This document shows, piece after piece, positions 10,632-16,224 of a DNA stretch of 64,000 nt. A model generated the notes under the pieces. That model ran no database searches and was not told where the DNA came from. It saw only the letters and a list, made by a program, of their open reading frames with translations. Position 1 is the stretch's first letter, and each line of letters begins with the position of its first letter. Source of the DNA: an uncultured Pelagibacteraceae bacterium (lineage in GTDB: Bacteria > Pseudomonadota > Alphaproteobacteria > Pelagibacterales > Pelagibacteraceae); assembly GCA_902580945.1 (NCBI GenBank), contig CACHML010000007.1, positions 1 to 64,000 on the forward strand, given 5' to 3'. A program made the position numbers and the translations under genes.

Positions 10632-11853
10632 AAAAAAACTAGATTTATCTTTAGGAAGAACTTTTAACCTTTTAAAAAAGCTTGGTAATCCACAAGATAA
10701 ATTAAATAACATTATCACGGTTGTTGGAACTAATGCTAAAGCAAGCATGTGCTTTGGCATTAAGTCAATTCTAAACCAAGGTGGATATCAAACTAATCTT
10801 TACACCTCGCCCCACCTACTCTCTTATACAGAAAGATATATTTTTAATGATAAGGAAATCAATGAAGAAGATTTAATAGAATTACTGACTGATGTTGAAA
10901 AAACTTTAGGTGATGACAATGCAACATTATTTGAAATTTTAACTTGTGCATTTTTAAAACATGCTGAAAATTTCAAAGATAATATTAATATTATAGAAGC
11001 AGGATTATTTCATCAATTTGATAGTACAAATGTATTTAAGGAAAATTTAATGACACTCATTGGCGTCATTCACAATGACCATTTCCAGTGGCTTGAAAAT
11101 AAATCAATTGAAGGTGTAATATATGAAAAAACAACTAAGCTTTTAAACTCAAATATATTTATTAATAAACAAGTAAATAATGAAATAGTAAATAAAATAG
11201 AAAAATCATTGGAAAAAAATACATCCAATAAATATTTTTTTGGTAAAGATTTTAGTATTTCAAAGTCCAAAAATGGTTTGATTAAGTATCAAGATCAGTT
11301 AGGAGGATTAGTATTGCCTGAGCCAAGTATTCTTGGAGATCATCAGCTTTATAATATAAGTACCTCAATAGCTGCATCACGAAAAATATTTAATATAAAA
11401 GATAATGATATAATTAATGGTATTCAAAATATTTCACTCAAAGGAAGATTGGAAGAAATCAAAAATGGAAAGTTAAAAACGATTGCAGGCAACAATAGAT
11501 TAATTATTGACGGTGGTCATAATATAAGTGCAAGTTTTTCAATCGCAAATTGGATAAAAAACCAAACTCAAGAGGTAAATCTAATAGTTGGAATGATGAA
11601 AGATAAAGAACATATTGAATTTATTAAATCTTTTAGAAATATTGTTAATTCTATAACTCTGATTGATATTCCTAATCAAGAAGGTGCAATATCAAAAGAA
11701 GATTTGGAAAGTAAGATTAATGAACTAAATTTAAATATAAAAAAATCACAAAGCATTGAAAGTGCTATTAAATCATTGTCTAAAAAAGAAAATACAATAA
11801 CTGTTTGTGTAGGTTCGCTTTATCTTGCGGGAGAAATTCTAAAATTAAATTAG
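10588..11853 (+). CDS. folC: Folylpolyglutamate/dihydrofolate synthase, divergent
   Basis: Adds glutamate to folates (and to dihydropteroate). Mur-ligase-like ATP-grasping fold: P-loop GTNAKASM (47-54; family GTNGKGST, lysine retained), YTSPHL, TLFEILTCAF, AGLFHQFDSTN (family VGLGGRxDATN), NDHFQWL (family LDHxxxLG), DGGHN and VGMMKDKE. 421 aa is normal. The chosen ATG overlaps accD by 44 nt; a later start would cut into the conserved first helix, so the overlap is probably real. The 3' end overlaps the convergent trxA stop (TTAG, 11850-11853). Confidence 0.88.
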   Translation: MKLQKLISKLEKHHKKKLDLSLGRTFNLLKKLGNPQDKLNNIITVVGTNAKASMCFGIKSILNQGGYQTNLYTSPHLLSYTERYIFNDKEINEEDLIELLTDVEKTLGDDNATLFEILTCAFLKHAENFKDNINIIEAGLFHQFDSTNVFKENLMTLIGVIHNDHFQWLENKSIEGVIYEKTTKLLNSNIFINKQVNNEIVNKIEKSLEKNTSNKYFFGKDFSISKSKNGLIKYQDQLGGLVLPEPSILGDHQLYNISTSIAASRKIFNIKDNDIINGIQNISLKGRLEEIKNGKLKTIAGNNRLIIDGGHNISASFSIANWIKNQTQEVNLIVGMMKDKEHIEFIKSFRNIVNSITLIDIPNQEGAISKEDLESKINELNLNIKKSQSIESAIKSLSKKENTITVCVGSLYLAGEILKLN

Positions 11854-12170
11854 ATATTTTCTTTAATAAATGAAACAATATCACTTTTGGGTGTAGCACC
11901 AACTTTAGTAGCTTTTAACTCACCTCCTGAAAATAAGAGCATAGTAGGAATTCCTCTTATAGAATATCGCGTTGGAACGTTTGGTTGAGAGTCAATATCG
12001 TGTTTTGCGACTACAACTTCCTCAGCCATTTCATCAGAGATTTCCTCTAAAATAGGCCCCACCATTTTACAAGGTCCACACCACTCTGCCCAAAAATCCA
12101 CTAAAACTGGCTTGTCACTTTTTAGGACTTTTTCGTCAAAGTTTTCATCAGTTACATTTATTGTAGCCAT
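11850..12170 (-). CDS. trxA: Thioredoxin
   Basis: General disulfide reductant of the cytoplasm. 106 aa with the classic WAEWCGPCKM active site (two cysteines in CGPC), the buried Asp in VDFWAEW and the cis-proline in RGIPTMLLF. It stands alone between two other transcription units: its stop overlaps the convergent folC stop, and 67 nt separate its start from the end of the upstream exonuclease I gene. Confidence 0.96.
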   Translation of the reverse strand: MATINVTDENFDEKVLKSDKPVLVDFWAEWCGPCKMVGPILEEISDEMAEEVVVAKHDIDSQPNVPTRYSIRGIPTMLLFSGGELKATKVGATPKSDIVSFIKENI

Positions 12171-12237: not shown

Positions 12238-13671
12238 TTAAACATTTTCATACTTTTTTTGAATTGACATTGCATAATTATTAAACTCATCCAAAAGGGC
12301 TAATTTTTCATTGTCGTTTTCATTAGTATATTTTTCTCTTAAAGTATCAATTTCATTATATAAAGTTGGAATAGTCCACCATTTTTCTTTTTTTTCACTC
12401 AGTATTCTTTTTGCTATATCTCTTCTGATTGATTTATAAATAGAGTCTGGAAGTATCTCCGGAGCTTCTTGAAAGATGATTTTTTTACCAAAACTTACCA
12501 ATCTATCATCGTCAAACTTATCTAATAAATTTAATTTTTCTTTCCATGGTGCATCATGCCAACTTGGAAACAAAGCGGTATCCTTATTTGATGTAAATTT
12601 TGTATAAATGCTCTCTTCTGCATATATATCTTCTTGCGATTTTGATTGCTCTTTTTCTTCTGCAACCTCACGAAGGGCAGTTAAAATATTTTGTGAAAAC
12701 TGTTCATTATTTTGAACAAATTCAGCTCTTTTTTTAATAACGTTTTTATCTAATTGTTTATACGGTTCAACATTCAAGCCATATTTTGCATCAATAATTA
12801 TTGGTGCTTTGTTTGATCTAACTGTTCTTAAAAACTTTGGAGTTTTTTTCATCTCGGTTTTTAATTCATTTATAGATTTATTAATCAGTGGTTGAATTTC
12901 TGTTCTAAGATCTATTGTATAATACCATCCTTGATAAATTGGATGCATACAATGTTTTGCATGTAGCGGTACAACTAAATGAAGCCTGGACTTTCCATAA
13001 TAATATTCGTTTAATGTTATAATCTCTCCTTTTTTTATAATAGTTTCAGTATTAGATTTATTTGCGGTGCTTAAAAAAGACTTCCAAGTATGTTCTTGTT
13101 TTTTTTTTACAATTTTCAAAACTTTTGCAGTAAGTTCTGCATCAGCTAGAGCGGAGTGAGCATCACTTGCGTCTATGCCTTGCATCTGAGCCAGAGATGC
13201 TAATTTAAAAACTGGGTTATTTTTTTCATTAATTTCAGTTTCTAAAACTGTTGGATCTACTGCATATGCAGCTCTTGCAATATTTATTCCATCATGTCTT
13301 GTATTTGGTGCGGAATTTGTCAAATAAGGATACCTAATACTTTTGAAAAATTCTTTTCTTATCATCTCCTCATCGAAATTTAGTGAACTCCACCCTAAGA
13401 AAATAGCAGGGCTCCATTTCTTAAAAATTTTTTCAACCTGCCCAAGCATTTGATAGTGACTTAGATTTGTTTGAGTAAGTTGTTTAATTGATGTCTTGTT
13501 AACTATTAAAGCTGCAGCTTGAAAAATCTCAGTTTCATGAAGTCTGCATCGAAGATTAAATCTATCTTTTTCTTTAAAGTTCTCGTCAAATAGTATTCCC
13601 CCAATTTCTATGATGCTACCAAAGTCAGTGCTAGCACTTGAAGATTCTATATCCCAGATTGCTAAATTCAT
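12238..13671 (-). CDS. sbcB: Exodeoxyribonuclease I (single-strand 3'-5' exonuclease)
   Basis: DEDDh-family exonuclease acting in recombination and mismatch repair. Exo I motif IWDIESSS near the N-terminus (Asp and Glu metal ligands), a second acidic motif in LGWSSLNFDEEM, and the ExoIII motif DAHSALADAE (His and Asp). The C-terminal ~280 residues correspond to the ExoI SH3-like and helical parts, so at 477 aa it matches full-length ExoI rather than an epsilon-type proofreading subunit. It overlaps rmuC by 4 nt and follows it in the same transcript. Confidence 0.88.
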   Translation of the reverse strand: MNLAIWDIESSSASTDFGSIIEIGGILFDENFKEKDRFNLRCRLHETEIFQAAALIVNKTSIKQLTQTNLSHYQMLGQVEKIFKKWSPAIFLGWSSLNFDEEMIRKEFFKSIRYPYLTNSAPNTRHDGINIARAAYAVDPTVLETEINEKNNPVFKLASLAQMQGIDASDAHSALADAELTAKVLKIVKKKQEHTWKSFLSTANKSNTETIIKKGEIITLNEYYYGKSRLHLVVPLHAKHCMHPIYQGWYYTIDLRTEIQPLINKSINELKTEMKKTPKFLRTVRSNKAPIIIDAKYGLNVEPYKQLDKNVIKKRAEFVQNNEQFSQNILTALREVAEEKEQSKSQEDIYAEESIYTKFTSNKDTALFPSWHDAPWKEKLNLLDKFDDDRLVSFGKKIIFQEAPEILPDSIYKSIRRDIAKRILSEKKEKWWTIPTLYNEIDTLREKYTNENDNEKLALLDEFNNYAMSIQKKYENV

Positions 13672-14735
13672 TGATTTATAAGGTCTTTTTTATCAAATTC
13701 TAGATCTTTAACTCTTTTAGCCCTATTAGTAATTGCATCTACCGATATTTGAAGTTTTCTAAAATCTTCTGTCAATTGTGTATTTCTTTTATCAATATTG
13801 CTAAATCTTTCAGAAAATCTAGTGATGTCTTCAAATATTTTGCTAAATTCTTTTTGAATAATATCGGCTTTTTCACTCATTTCCTTATTGTCAATAAATA
13901 GTCTGTATGTCTTTAAAAAACCAAAAATAGTATTAGGCGATACAATTATAACATTTTTAGTTCTTGCTTCTTCTGAAAAATTTCCTTTTGCCTCCATTAT
14001 GGCATTATAAACACCTTCGGATGCAACATACATAATTGCAAATGGAGCTGTCTCATTTTCTATGATATATTTTTCTGAAATATCCTTAATATGTTTTTTA
14101 ATATCATCTGAAAATAATTTTGCGTAATTTTTTTTTTGTTGTTCATCTTTCTCAGTGATTAGTTTTGTATAATTTTCCCAAGCAAATTTAGAGTCTATTG
14201 GAACACATTCATGAGCTTCTCCAAGATGTAAAAAACAGTCAACTCTTTTTCCATTTGATAAAGTATATTCCATATCGAAATACTTTTTACTTAAAACATC
14301 AGAGACAATTGTTTTTAAGGAATCATTTCCTAACCTTCCTCTAGTACCTTGATTGTTAAAAAGATTTTTAAAATCAATTACACTAGTTTTTATCTCATTA
14401 ATTTCTTCCTGTGCCTTATCAATCCTAGCCAATCTCTCATTTAAACCGCTCACTATCGACCTAATTTCTTTATCTGACTCATTTTGTTTTTGTGTAATTT
14501 TTTCTGATAAATCACTTTGTTTTTGCGTTATTTTTTCTGATAAATCACTTTGTTTTTCAGTGATTTTTTCAGTTAAAACAGAATTATTCTCAGCATTTTT
14601 TTCAATTAATTTTTCTATTTTTTCGGAAAGATTTTCATTACTTTGATTACTTTTAGCATGGTCAAGCCTTTTAATTACCAAAACAATTAGCACAACTAAG
14701 ACAGCAATAAATATTAATATAATATACTCCAACAT
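13668..14735 (-). CDS. rmuC: RmuC-family DNA recombination protein
   Basis: Membrane-anchored protein of the RmuC family (predicted restriction-like nuclease core; limits inversion at short repeats in E. coli). One N-terminal membrane helix (residues ~4-22), a long coiled coil (~30-120) containing 11-residue repeats, then the conserved RmuC core with LKTIVSDVLSKKYFD, VDCFLHL, PIDSKFAWENY and IIVSPNTIFGFLKTYR. 355 aa, at the short end for the family. Coupled to exonuclease I downstream. Confidence 0.88.
   Translation of the reverse strand: MLEYIILIFIAVLVVLIVLVIKRLDHAKSNQSNENLSEKIEKLIEKNAENNSVLTEKITEKQSDLSEKITQKQSDLSEKITQKQNESDKEIRSIVSGLNERLARIDKAQEEINEIKTSVIDFKNLFNNQGTRGRLGNDSLKTIVSDVLSKKYFDMEYTLSNGKRVDCFLHLGEAHECVPIDSKFAWENYTKLITEKDEQQKKNYAKLFSDDIKKHIKDISEKYIIENETAPFAIMYVASEGVYNAIMEAKGNFSEEARTKNVIIVSPNTIFGFLKTYRLFIDNKEMSEKADIIQKEFSKIFEDITRFSERFSNIDKRNTQLTEDFRKLQISVDAITNRAKRVKDLEFDKKDLINQ
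14485..14575 (-). repeat. 33-nt tandem repeat in the rmuC coiled coil
   Basis: About three 33-nt units with exact spacing between copies (the CTGATAAATCACTTTG core recurs at 33-nt intervals, near 14504 and 14537). They encode EKIT[EQ]KQSDLS repeats in the coiled-coil rod of RmuC. The 11-residue period keeps the helix in frame, so this looks like slippage tolerated by a rod. Confidence 0.85.
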
Positions 14736-14858: not shown

Positions 14859-15545
14859 TCAAGAAATATTATTTAGTTCATAAAATTTTTTTACTCGTCC
14901 CATGAACAAGTTTTGATACATTTCAAGTTCAGCCCCTTCTATTTTAAATTCTTGAAACAATATGTCTTTAGTACATAAAAGAATTATACCTGCTTTCATC
15001 TTAGTGCCATGAACAACATCATGACCCAATGTGTAAGCGCCAAGTTGCAAAAAGTAATCTTGTATAAAATCTGATTTTTTTGGCTTATTAGCTTGCTTAA
15101 AATCTATACAAACGTCTACACCATTCATTTTAGCTAATAAATCTGCTGTGCCTGCGTACTGATCTGGATAATAAATAGTTTCCTCAATTCCATATATTTC
15201 CTCTAGCCTGCCATTTAGTCCTTTATCAATAATTTCTTTTGCCATTATTTTATGTTGCTCATTGGTCTCAAAAAAACTCTTATTTACTCTACCTCTAAGG
15301 AAATCCTCTATATATGAGTGCATTAACGTTCCTCTAGTAGAAGCCTCCGTTTTAATTCTGTTGGCTTCTTTTAAGCCTACTCTTTCTCTCCAATTTGCTA
15401 AAGCTGCTTTTTCTTCCTCTGATTTTGTTAGAGAAAGTATACTTGTTACTGATGGAAGTTTTGCCTCACCCAAAGAATATTTTCTGTGTCCATCTTCAAT
15501 AGATCTTGTTGACTTCGGATAATTAAATTTATTATTCCAACGCAT
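14859..15545 (-). CDS. PD-(D/E)XK exonuclease, MGME1-like
   Basis: Predicted single-strand DNA exonuclease of the RecB/MGME1 nuclease group. Order of motifs in 228 aa: PSVTSILS (31-38), RGTLMHSYIE with His76, GTADLLAKM with Asp135, VCIDFKQ with Asp148-x-Lys150, and QLGAY with Gln167. This His/Asp/D-x-K/Q arrangement and the PSVT start closely follow mitochondrial genome maintenance exonuclease 1 as I remember it. It is upstream of rmuC (123-nt gap) and 1 nt after hisG, so it may share the histidine transcript. No Cas genes are nearby and no cysteine cluster is evident, so it is not Cas4. Confidence 0.82.
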   Translation of the reverse strand: MRWNNKFNYPKSTRSIEDGHRKYSLGEAKLPSVTSILSLTKSEEEKAALANWRERVGLKEANRIKTEASTRGTLMHSYIEDFLRGRVNKSFFETNEQHKIMAKEIIDKGLNGRLEEIYGIEETIYYPDQYAGTADLLAKMNGVDVCIDFKQANKPKKSDFIQDYFLQLGAYTLGHDVVHGTKMKAGIILLCTKDILFQEFKIEGAELEMYQNLFMGRVKKFYELNNIS

Positions 15546-15546
15546 T

Positions 15547-16224
15547 TTATTTACTTAATAATTTTATAATATTTTGAATATTTTTTTTTTTAGATATTTT
15601 TTTAGAAGACATCAAACAGGCTTGCGATAGAAGTATTTCTCCATCCTTTAAAATTCTTAAATTGTTAGCTTTTAAAGTCTCTCCTGTACTGGTTATATCT
15701 GTTAAAATCTCAGATGAACCAGTAAATGGATATACCTCAGTTGCTCCAAGGGAAGGTACTAATTTAAATTGAGTCACTCCTCTTGAAAATAAAAATTCTT
15801 TGGTCAAGTTTGGATATTTTGTTGCAACTCTTAATCTACTTTTCTTTTTATCTTTAAAATCAAAAGATATTTCTTCTAAATCAGCAAGTGTTTGGACATC
15901 TATCCACTCGTCAGGAACAGCTACAACTAGGGTAGCATTTCCATAATTAAGTTTTTTATTAATGGTAACTTTATTTTGAATATTTAATTCAGATTCTTTT
16001 AATAAATCATAACCTGAAAATCCTATATCTAAAGATCCATCTCCTAATCTTTCTATAATTTCTCTTGCATGAAGATAAACTATTTTAATTTTCTTATTTC
16101 CTTTTATATATCCAAAAAGATCTCTTTCCCCTCTTTCTGATAAAATTTTTAAATTTTTATTTTTAAAAATACTTAAAGTGTCTTTTCTGAGTCTACCTTT
16201 GCTAGGGATGCCGATTTTAATCAT
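15547..16224 (-). CDS. hisG: ATP phosphoribosyltransferase, short form
   Basis: First step of histidine synthesis, joining ATP and PRPP. 225 aa, the short HisG type, which lacks the C-terminal regulatory ACT-like domain and needs HisZ. Features: IGIPSKGRLRKDTL at the N-terminus, DIGFSGYDLL, and the PRPP loop EILTDITSTGETLKANNL around 175-192. It overlaps hisZ by 8 nt, which fits assembly of a HisG-HisZ hetero-octamer (known for the family). Confidence 0.94.
   Translation of the reverse strand: MIKIGIPSKGRLRKDTLSIFKNKNLKILSERGERDLFGYIKGNKKIKIVYLHAREIIERLGDGSLDIGFSGYDLLKESELNIQNKVTINKKLNYGNATLVVAVPDEWIDVQTLADLEEISFDFKDKKKSRLRVATKYPNLTKEFLFSRGVTQFKLVPSLGATEVYPFTGSSEILTDITSTGETLKANNLRILKDGEILLSQACLMSSKKISKKKNIQNIIKLLSK

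Follow-up and report, generated by a model that had tools for sequence, protein, structure and literature searches.

What kind of nuclease is encoded next to the repair genes of a SAR11 chromosome, and does it bear on the origin of the mitochondrial exonuclease MGME1? The window analysed here, a stretch of 64,000 nucleotides from an uncultured Pelagibacteraceae bacterium, contains an ORF at positions 14859-15545, hereafter X, that runs from ATG to stop and encodes 228 amino acids. The original prediction had placed an MGME1-like nuclease at exactly these coordinates, with the strand unstated, and near RmuC and exonuclease I. Both the ORF, which lies on the minus strand, and the two neighbours were confirmed. 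The gene order in the window is hisG-X-rmuC-exonuclease I (sbcB)-trxA, as follows.

15547..16224, minus strand: hisG, immediately upstream; X begins one base past the hisG stop codon.
14859..15545, minus strand: X, gene for a predicted MGME1-type / PHROG 298 exonuclease of 228 amino acids (ORF, profile and fold matches).
13668..14735, minus strand: rmuC, predicted nuclease and cluster neighbour (PF02646, E 2.7e-49).
12238..13671, minus strand: exonuclease I (sbcB), 3'-5' ssDNA exonuclease (PF08411, E 5.5e-17; PF00929, E 6e-5), overlapping rmuC by 4 bases.
11850..12170, minus strand: thioredoxin (trxA), at the far end of a conserved rmuC-sbcB-trxA block.

X is not a chance ORF, because its dN/dS is 0.04-0.10 (versus relatives 76-97% identical), it is carried by 148 of the 159 genomes of its genus, and a single-sequence search of the PDB retrieves human MGME1 at E 1.6e-6. 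Judged from this conservation, it is a functional gene under purifying selection. It is present in a single copy in its own genome, and Pelagibacteraceae (SAR11) genome records carry proteins 96-98% identical to it. No CRISPR-type genes were seen among the ORFs around X in the window, and no phage structural gene stands beside it.

Profile and fold comparisons were used to assign the protein to a family. The PHROG 298 'exonuclease' profile matches X over its full length (residues 6-224, E 1e-46); membership of this family is characterized by such a match and a stand-alone size of about 230 amino acids, both of which X has, together with the signature S-x-T, W, G-x-x-x-H, E, G-x-x-D, D-x-K, Q-x-x-x-Y. 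The Pfam PDDEXK_1 match is below its cut-off, and a search of NCBIfam with X gave no match. In the PDB, a profile of SAR11 and phage members retrieves MGME1 at E 7e-25 and, with a limit of E 1, just one further entry, a yeast protein at 0.02 that is not a nuclease match; for a second family profile, MGME1 (E 5e-20) is the sole entry up to E 10. The AlphaFold2 model of X (64 sequences; pLDDT 94.7, pTM 0.90) matches DNA-bound MGME1 structures with Z 21.6-21.8 and 1.9-2.5 A over 187-194 residues, versus Z 13.7 for RecE, 12.2 for Cas4 and 11.9 for AddA. Foldseek with the same model gives MGME1 at E 3e-12, followed by a gap from 1e-10 to 3e-5, with RecE, Cas4 and AddA at 3e-5 or worse. Thus, profiles and the predicted structure confirm the anticipated likeness of X to MGME1, which exceeds that to RecB, AddA or Cas4. 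The assignment is made because of profile and fold and not because of motif order, on which the original prediction had relied: the five motifs do occur in X in the expected order, but this order by itself is not specific to MGME1, since four of the five are common to RecB-type nucleases, the H, D, DxK and QhxxY motifs being general to these enzymes (PMC6237815).

Comparison of X with the known nucleases revealed shared and distinguishing features. Human MGME1 has the same fold (Z 21.8 over about 190 residues), catalytic residues, ssDNA-contact residues and Trp152; however, the two proteins are about 20% identical, and X lacks the mitochondrial targeting region and does not keep Phe173. The RecB/AddA nuclease domains share motifs Ia, I-III and IV with X, but reach only Z of about 8-12, are missing from the PDB matches of the family profile, and are fused to an SF1 helicase in AddAB/RecBCD, whereas X is a stand-alone ORF. 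Cas4 and RecE-type nucleases possess the same PD-(D/E)XK core (Z about 12-14), but no partner of the CRISPR or recombinase kind is found beside X. Cas4 also has a four-cysteine iron-sulphur site, whereas X contains only two cysteines (146 and 191).

The catalytic and ssDNA-contact residues of MGME1, taken from its structures (PMC6237815), were compared with an alignment of about 168 sequences (70 SAR11, 80 viral and 18 phage), in which their counterparts are invariant or nearly so. The catalytic residues His180, Glu223, Asp238, Asp251 and Lys253 correspond to H76, E121, D135, D148 and K150 of X, and the ssDNA-contact residues Ser132, Thr134, Gln271 and Tyr275 correspond to S32, T34, Q167 and Y171. 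Their positions in the window are listed below.

15444..15455, minus strand: PSVT (31-34), counterparts of the backbone-binding Ser132 and Thr134; retained by the SAR11 and marine viral sequences and by most of those from phages.
15390..15392, minus strand: Trp52, counterpart of MGME1 Trp152; invariant in 168/168 sequences.
15318..15335, minus strand: RGTLMH (71-76), motif Ia, with His76 for His180; His invariant.
15183..15185, minus strand: Glu121 for Glu223, motif I; invariant.
15141..15152, minus strand: GTAD (132-135), with Asp135 for Asp238; Asp invariant.
15096..15107, minus strand: IDFK (147-150), with Asp148 and Lys150 for Asp251 and Lys253; invariant bar one undetermined residue in locus L233.
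15033..15047, minus strand: QLGAY (167-171), motif IV, with Gln167 and Tyr171 for Gln271 and Tyr275; invariant.

The aromatic pin of MGME1, formed by Trp152 and Phe173, is half kept in X: the tryptophan is present as W52, whereas the Phe173 position is occupied by Ser69 in X and by Ser/Thr/Ala, rarely Leu/Gly/Cys, family-wide. Phe173 is half of the pin that opens duplexes, and the F173A variant of MGME1 retains ssDNA cleavage but is weakened on duplex-containing DNA (PMC6237815). By analogy with this variant, X, which has no Phe at this position, would be expected to be more strictly ssDNA-directed than MGME1.

The relatives of X were sought in phages and in bacteria. A tblastn search with X matched 912 phage records, of which pelagiphages HTVC023P and 023Pt are the best (42-43%), and at least 597 viral contigs, a count obtained with alignment A2 as the query, encode relatives of up to 52% identity. 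X as a single sequence gave no match among the viral contigs, nor did a scan with alignment A1 or a search of the genome contigs with a jumbo-phage query give any. On several viral contigs the gene is adjacent to a phage polymerase, endonuclease VII or terminase, and on none of the 80 viral contigs examined were the host neighbours of X present. The family is essentially viral. Its known members in PHROG 298 include pelagiphages HTVC023P, 023Pt and HTVC027P, cyanophage gp232, and jumbo phages 121Q, RaK2 and PA5oct, and they resemble X in the full-length match, size and motifs; the SAR11 copies branch inside them. The phage genes lie beside replication and packaging genes, whereas X is chromosomal, fixed in one genus and linked to exonuclease I and RmuC.

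Outside viruses, the gene is confined to a narrow range of genomes. Among the 247 genomes sampled from the order, X is present in 148 of 159 from one genus but is missing from all 88 that belong to other genera, apart from a fragment beside exonuclease I on a 3.4 kb contig (L101) of a genome from another family of the order (G087), which is probably contamination. At E 1e-10, only one of 398 Pseudomonadota genomes, the window's own, has the family. The PHROG 298 matches in the class sample (385 genomes) are nearly all frames of about 1,000-1,400 amino acids, which we rejected as close relatives of X and which are probably AddA-type; the stand-alone exception (G495, locus L034, 286 amino acids, E 6e-21) is a weak match. 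A distant homologue (28%) encoded on a Scytonema plasmid (L314:3908-4672) is a rare copy outside phages and SAR11; it was left out of the final tree after long branches had joined.

In that tree, the copies of X from SAR11 group in a single clade (100/99) nested in the marine-phage radiation; the marine clade around it, which comprises viral contigs and HTVC phages (98/92), lies within broader phage diversity. Most likely, as far as sequences can tell, the ancestor of one SAR11 genus captured X from a marine phage. The tree is unrooted, and the direction from phage to SAR11 is taken from this nesting together with the rmuC-sbcB-trxA block that sister genera have without X.

The original prediction had considered X informative through the mitochondrial ancestry of SAR11, that is, as a gene inherited from an alphaproteobacterial ancestor and sister to mitochondrial MGME1. 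Such an origin would agree with the scores of human MGME1, which is as close to SAR11 X as to any phage group (64.3 bits against the SAR11 profile and 64.5 bits against the marine-virus profile, followed by 58 for jumbo phages, 53 for cyanophages and 32 for Kuttervirus/Pootjesvirus types). Nor does the AU test reject a union of MGME1 with SAR11, which costs 0.2 log units (p-AU 0.47), a value obtained with one eukaryotic row on a very long branch of 3.5-5.2 changes per column, human MGME1 being the sole eukaryotic sequence in the tree. However, X is absent from all other sampled Pseudomonadota and from the sister SAR11 genera, a stand-alone X is absent from nearly all 385 genomes of the class, the SAR11 copies nest in phages, and SAR11 is not counted among the relatives of mitochondria (PMC3264578). 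Vertical alphaproteobacterial origin was rejected by this distribution across the order, class and Pseudomonadota samples, and we consider it very improbable. The original prediction had named as its refutation a tree with X among phage exonucleases or Cas4 and away from MGME1, and the tree built here answers to this by half: X falls firmly with phage exonucleases, but MGME1 belongs to the same family and more than one branch point for it is compatible with the data (p-AU 0.47). The phage genes that are its nearest relatives might also suggest that X is a prophage remnant or a recent phage insertion with no host function; we give this hardly any credence, since X is kept mostly at one syntenic site across the genus, its active site is intact, its dN/dS is low and the adjacent genes include no phage structural gene.

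Judged by sequence profile and modelled fold, MGME1 itself is an enzyme of the phage-exonuclease type, and passage through SAR11 is not indicated. Tentatively, and with rather less than even confidence, we suggest that MGME1 and SAR11 X represent independent captures from one phage exonuclease family. Pol gamma and the mitochondrial RNA polymerase are phage-like. If the captures were independent, MGME1 would join these two and Twinkle among the components of mitochondrial replication that derive from phages, and SAR11 would offer a living bacterial example of the same phage exonuclease capture. The resemblance of Twinkle to phage T7 gp4 is described in a published account (PMC9860392). Within the openly accessible literature searched, no work tying MGME1 to phage exonucleases came up, and such work may exist elsewhere. 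In place of a tempting but unsupported link between SAR11 and mitochondria, the data provide a testable link between MGME1 and phage exonucleases, grouping a human disease enzyme with a large phage family, a copy of which is fixed in one of Earth's most abundant groups of bacteria. What is new here is the cellular, domesticated member of an already known phage family, and X and its phage relatives could serve as bacterial and phage models for MGME1-type catalysis.

The genomic context of X in the genus bears on its function. The usual gene order is rmuC-X-sbcB-trxA, and that of the window is X-rmuC-sbcB-trxA. X adjoins sbcB or lies one gene away from it in 40 of 40 loci, also where sbcB is very divergent and encoded on the opposite strand. 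The exonuclease I model PF08411 matched 8 of the 9 X-positive genomes sampled, against 3 of 11 without X (p 0.01), a weak result, as divergent exonuclease I escapes the model. The genus (g1, including the window genome G000) is unusually poor in end-processing nucleases: (i) exonuclease VII is found in 0 of its 159 genomes versus 52 of 88 outside, (ii) RecJ is found in 26 of 159 versus 80 of 88, and (iii) a search of 7 members of the genus and 5 genomes of sister genera yielded no AddAB, the AddA matches, those in the window's own genome included, being of UvrD size only. Genomes with RecJ are found mainly on the deep branches of the X tree, which fits a scenario where X was gained first and RecJ was lost later. 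No anticorrelation between X and RecJ is seen among members of the genus (RecJ in 2 of 11 X-negative versus 24 of 148 X-positive genomes, p = 1), and 9 X-negative genomes appear to have neither; strict substitution of X for RecJ within the genus was rejected for lack of association. Since there is no such anticorrelation and a single between-genus contrast, a wider substitution of X for RecJ or exonuclease VII is put forward as a possibility only.

We consider it probable that X is a domesticated phage exonuclease that works with exonuclease I on ssDNA ends in this nuclease-poor genus. The basis for this proposal is the family, the fold, the conserved active site, the phage-nested phylogeny, the linkage to exonuclease I and RmuC, and the absence of other nucleases; from these we infer the substrate, polarity and cellular role of X and its possible substitution for RecJ and exonuclease VII. 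X would be a metal-dependent PD-(D/E)XK exonuclease of the MGME1 / PHROG 298 type, encoded by a captured marine-phage gene fixed in the SAR11 chromosome beside exonuclease I and RmuC. Most likely, ssDNA would be threaded under a helical arch and nucleotides removed at its end. MGME1 degrades ssDNA bidirectionally and faster from the 5' end (PMC11551736), and X probably shares this preference; the literature searched contained no biochemical data on members of PHROG 298. With a 5' bias, X would complement exonuclease I, which acts 3'-5', wherever ssDNA tails have to be trimmed in repair, recombination or replication. The genus has lost exonuclease VII and, for the most part, RecJ, and no AddAB was found in the genomes tested. 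X may hint at how streamlined genomes replace lost repair nucleases.

Two other roles were weighed against this one. As the main alternative, X, RmuC and exonuclease I could form a defence-associated module, where the captured exonuclease would destroy phage DNA, either incoming or already cleaved, in a step that follows restriction-type systems: clusters away from trxA adjoin Pbe, Mza-like or DISARM genes, the PADLOC RT-associated RmuC and SbcB models match the neighbours of X, and members of a single genus differ in having RmuC, unrelated versions of it or DUF2130 at this place. This seems unlikely, as the window, like most genomes, has the cluster flanked by his genes and trxA and free of defence genes, a prevalence of 93% is high for a defence gene, rmuC-sbcB-trxA is retained in sister genera, and islands gather unrelated genes. 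Simple island residence is a further possibility. X as part of a known defence system was rejected, PADLOC yielding only a weak Cas4 match for it (E 0.002). A 5'-flap or primer-processing nuclease acting in replication rather than recombination, as MGME1 does with Pol gamma, is a still more doubtful role for X. MGME1 processes flaps (PMC4222359), and in pelagiphages the neighbourhood of X includes a family A DNA polymerase along with endonuclease VII, but SAR11 X is linked to exonuclease I and RmuC and not to polA, and the Phe173 pin that aids MGME1 on duplex-containing DNA is replaced by Ser/Thr/Ala in the X family. Trimming of ssDNA ends together with exonuclease I remains the reading that we prefer.

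The X locus varies within the genus. The clusters adjoining defence genes belong to four deep-branching genomes: X-ExoI(-RmuC) is next to PbeA/PbeC in L081:7979-12217, to MzaB/MzaC-like genes in L084:7889-12310 and L088:190-6476 (the latter also with a methyltransferase), and to DrmA/DrmB and a methyl-directed restriction enzyme in L085:6699-12999. The RmuC versions at the locus are only about 25% identical (window 13668-14735; L077:5324-6421; L113:6755-8035), and one genome has a DUF2130 protein instead of RmuC, which suggests repeated replacement of this gene. In L082, L083:4945-6390 and L084:5095-6558, the exonuclease I beside X is very divergent and encoded on the opposite strand; in L083, it adjoins a Peptidase_S24 (repressor-like) ORF.
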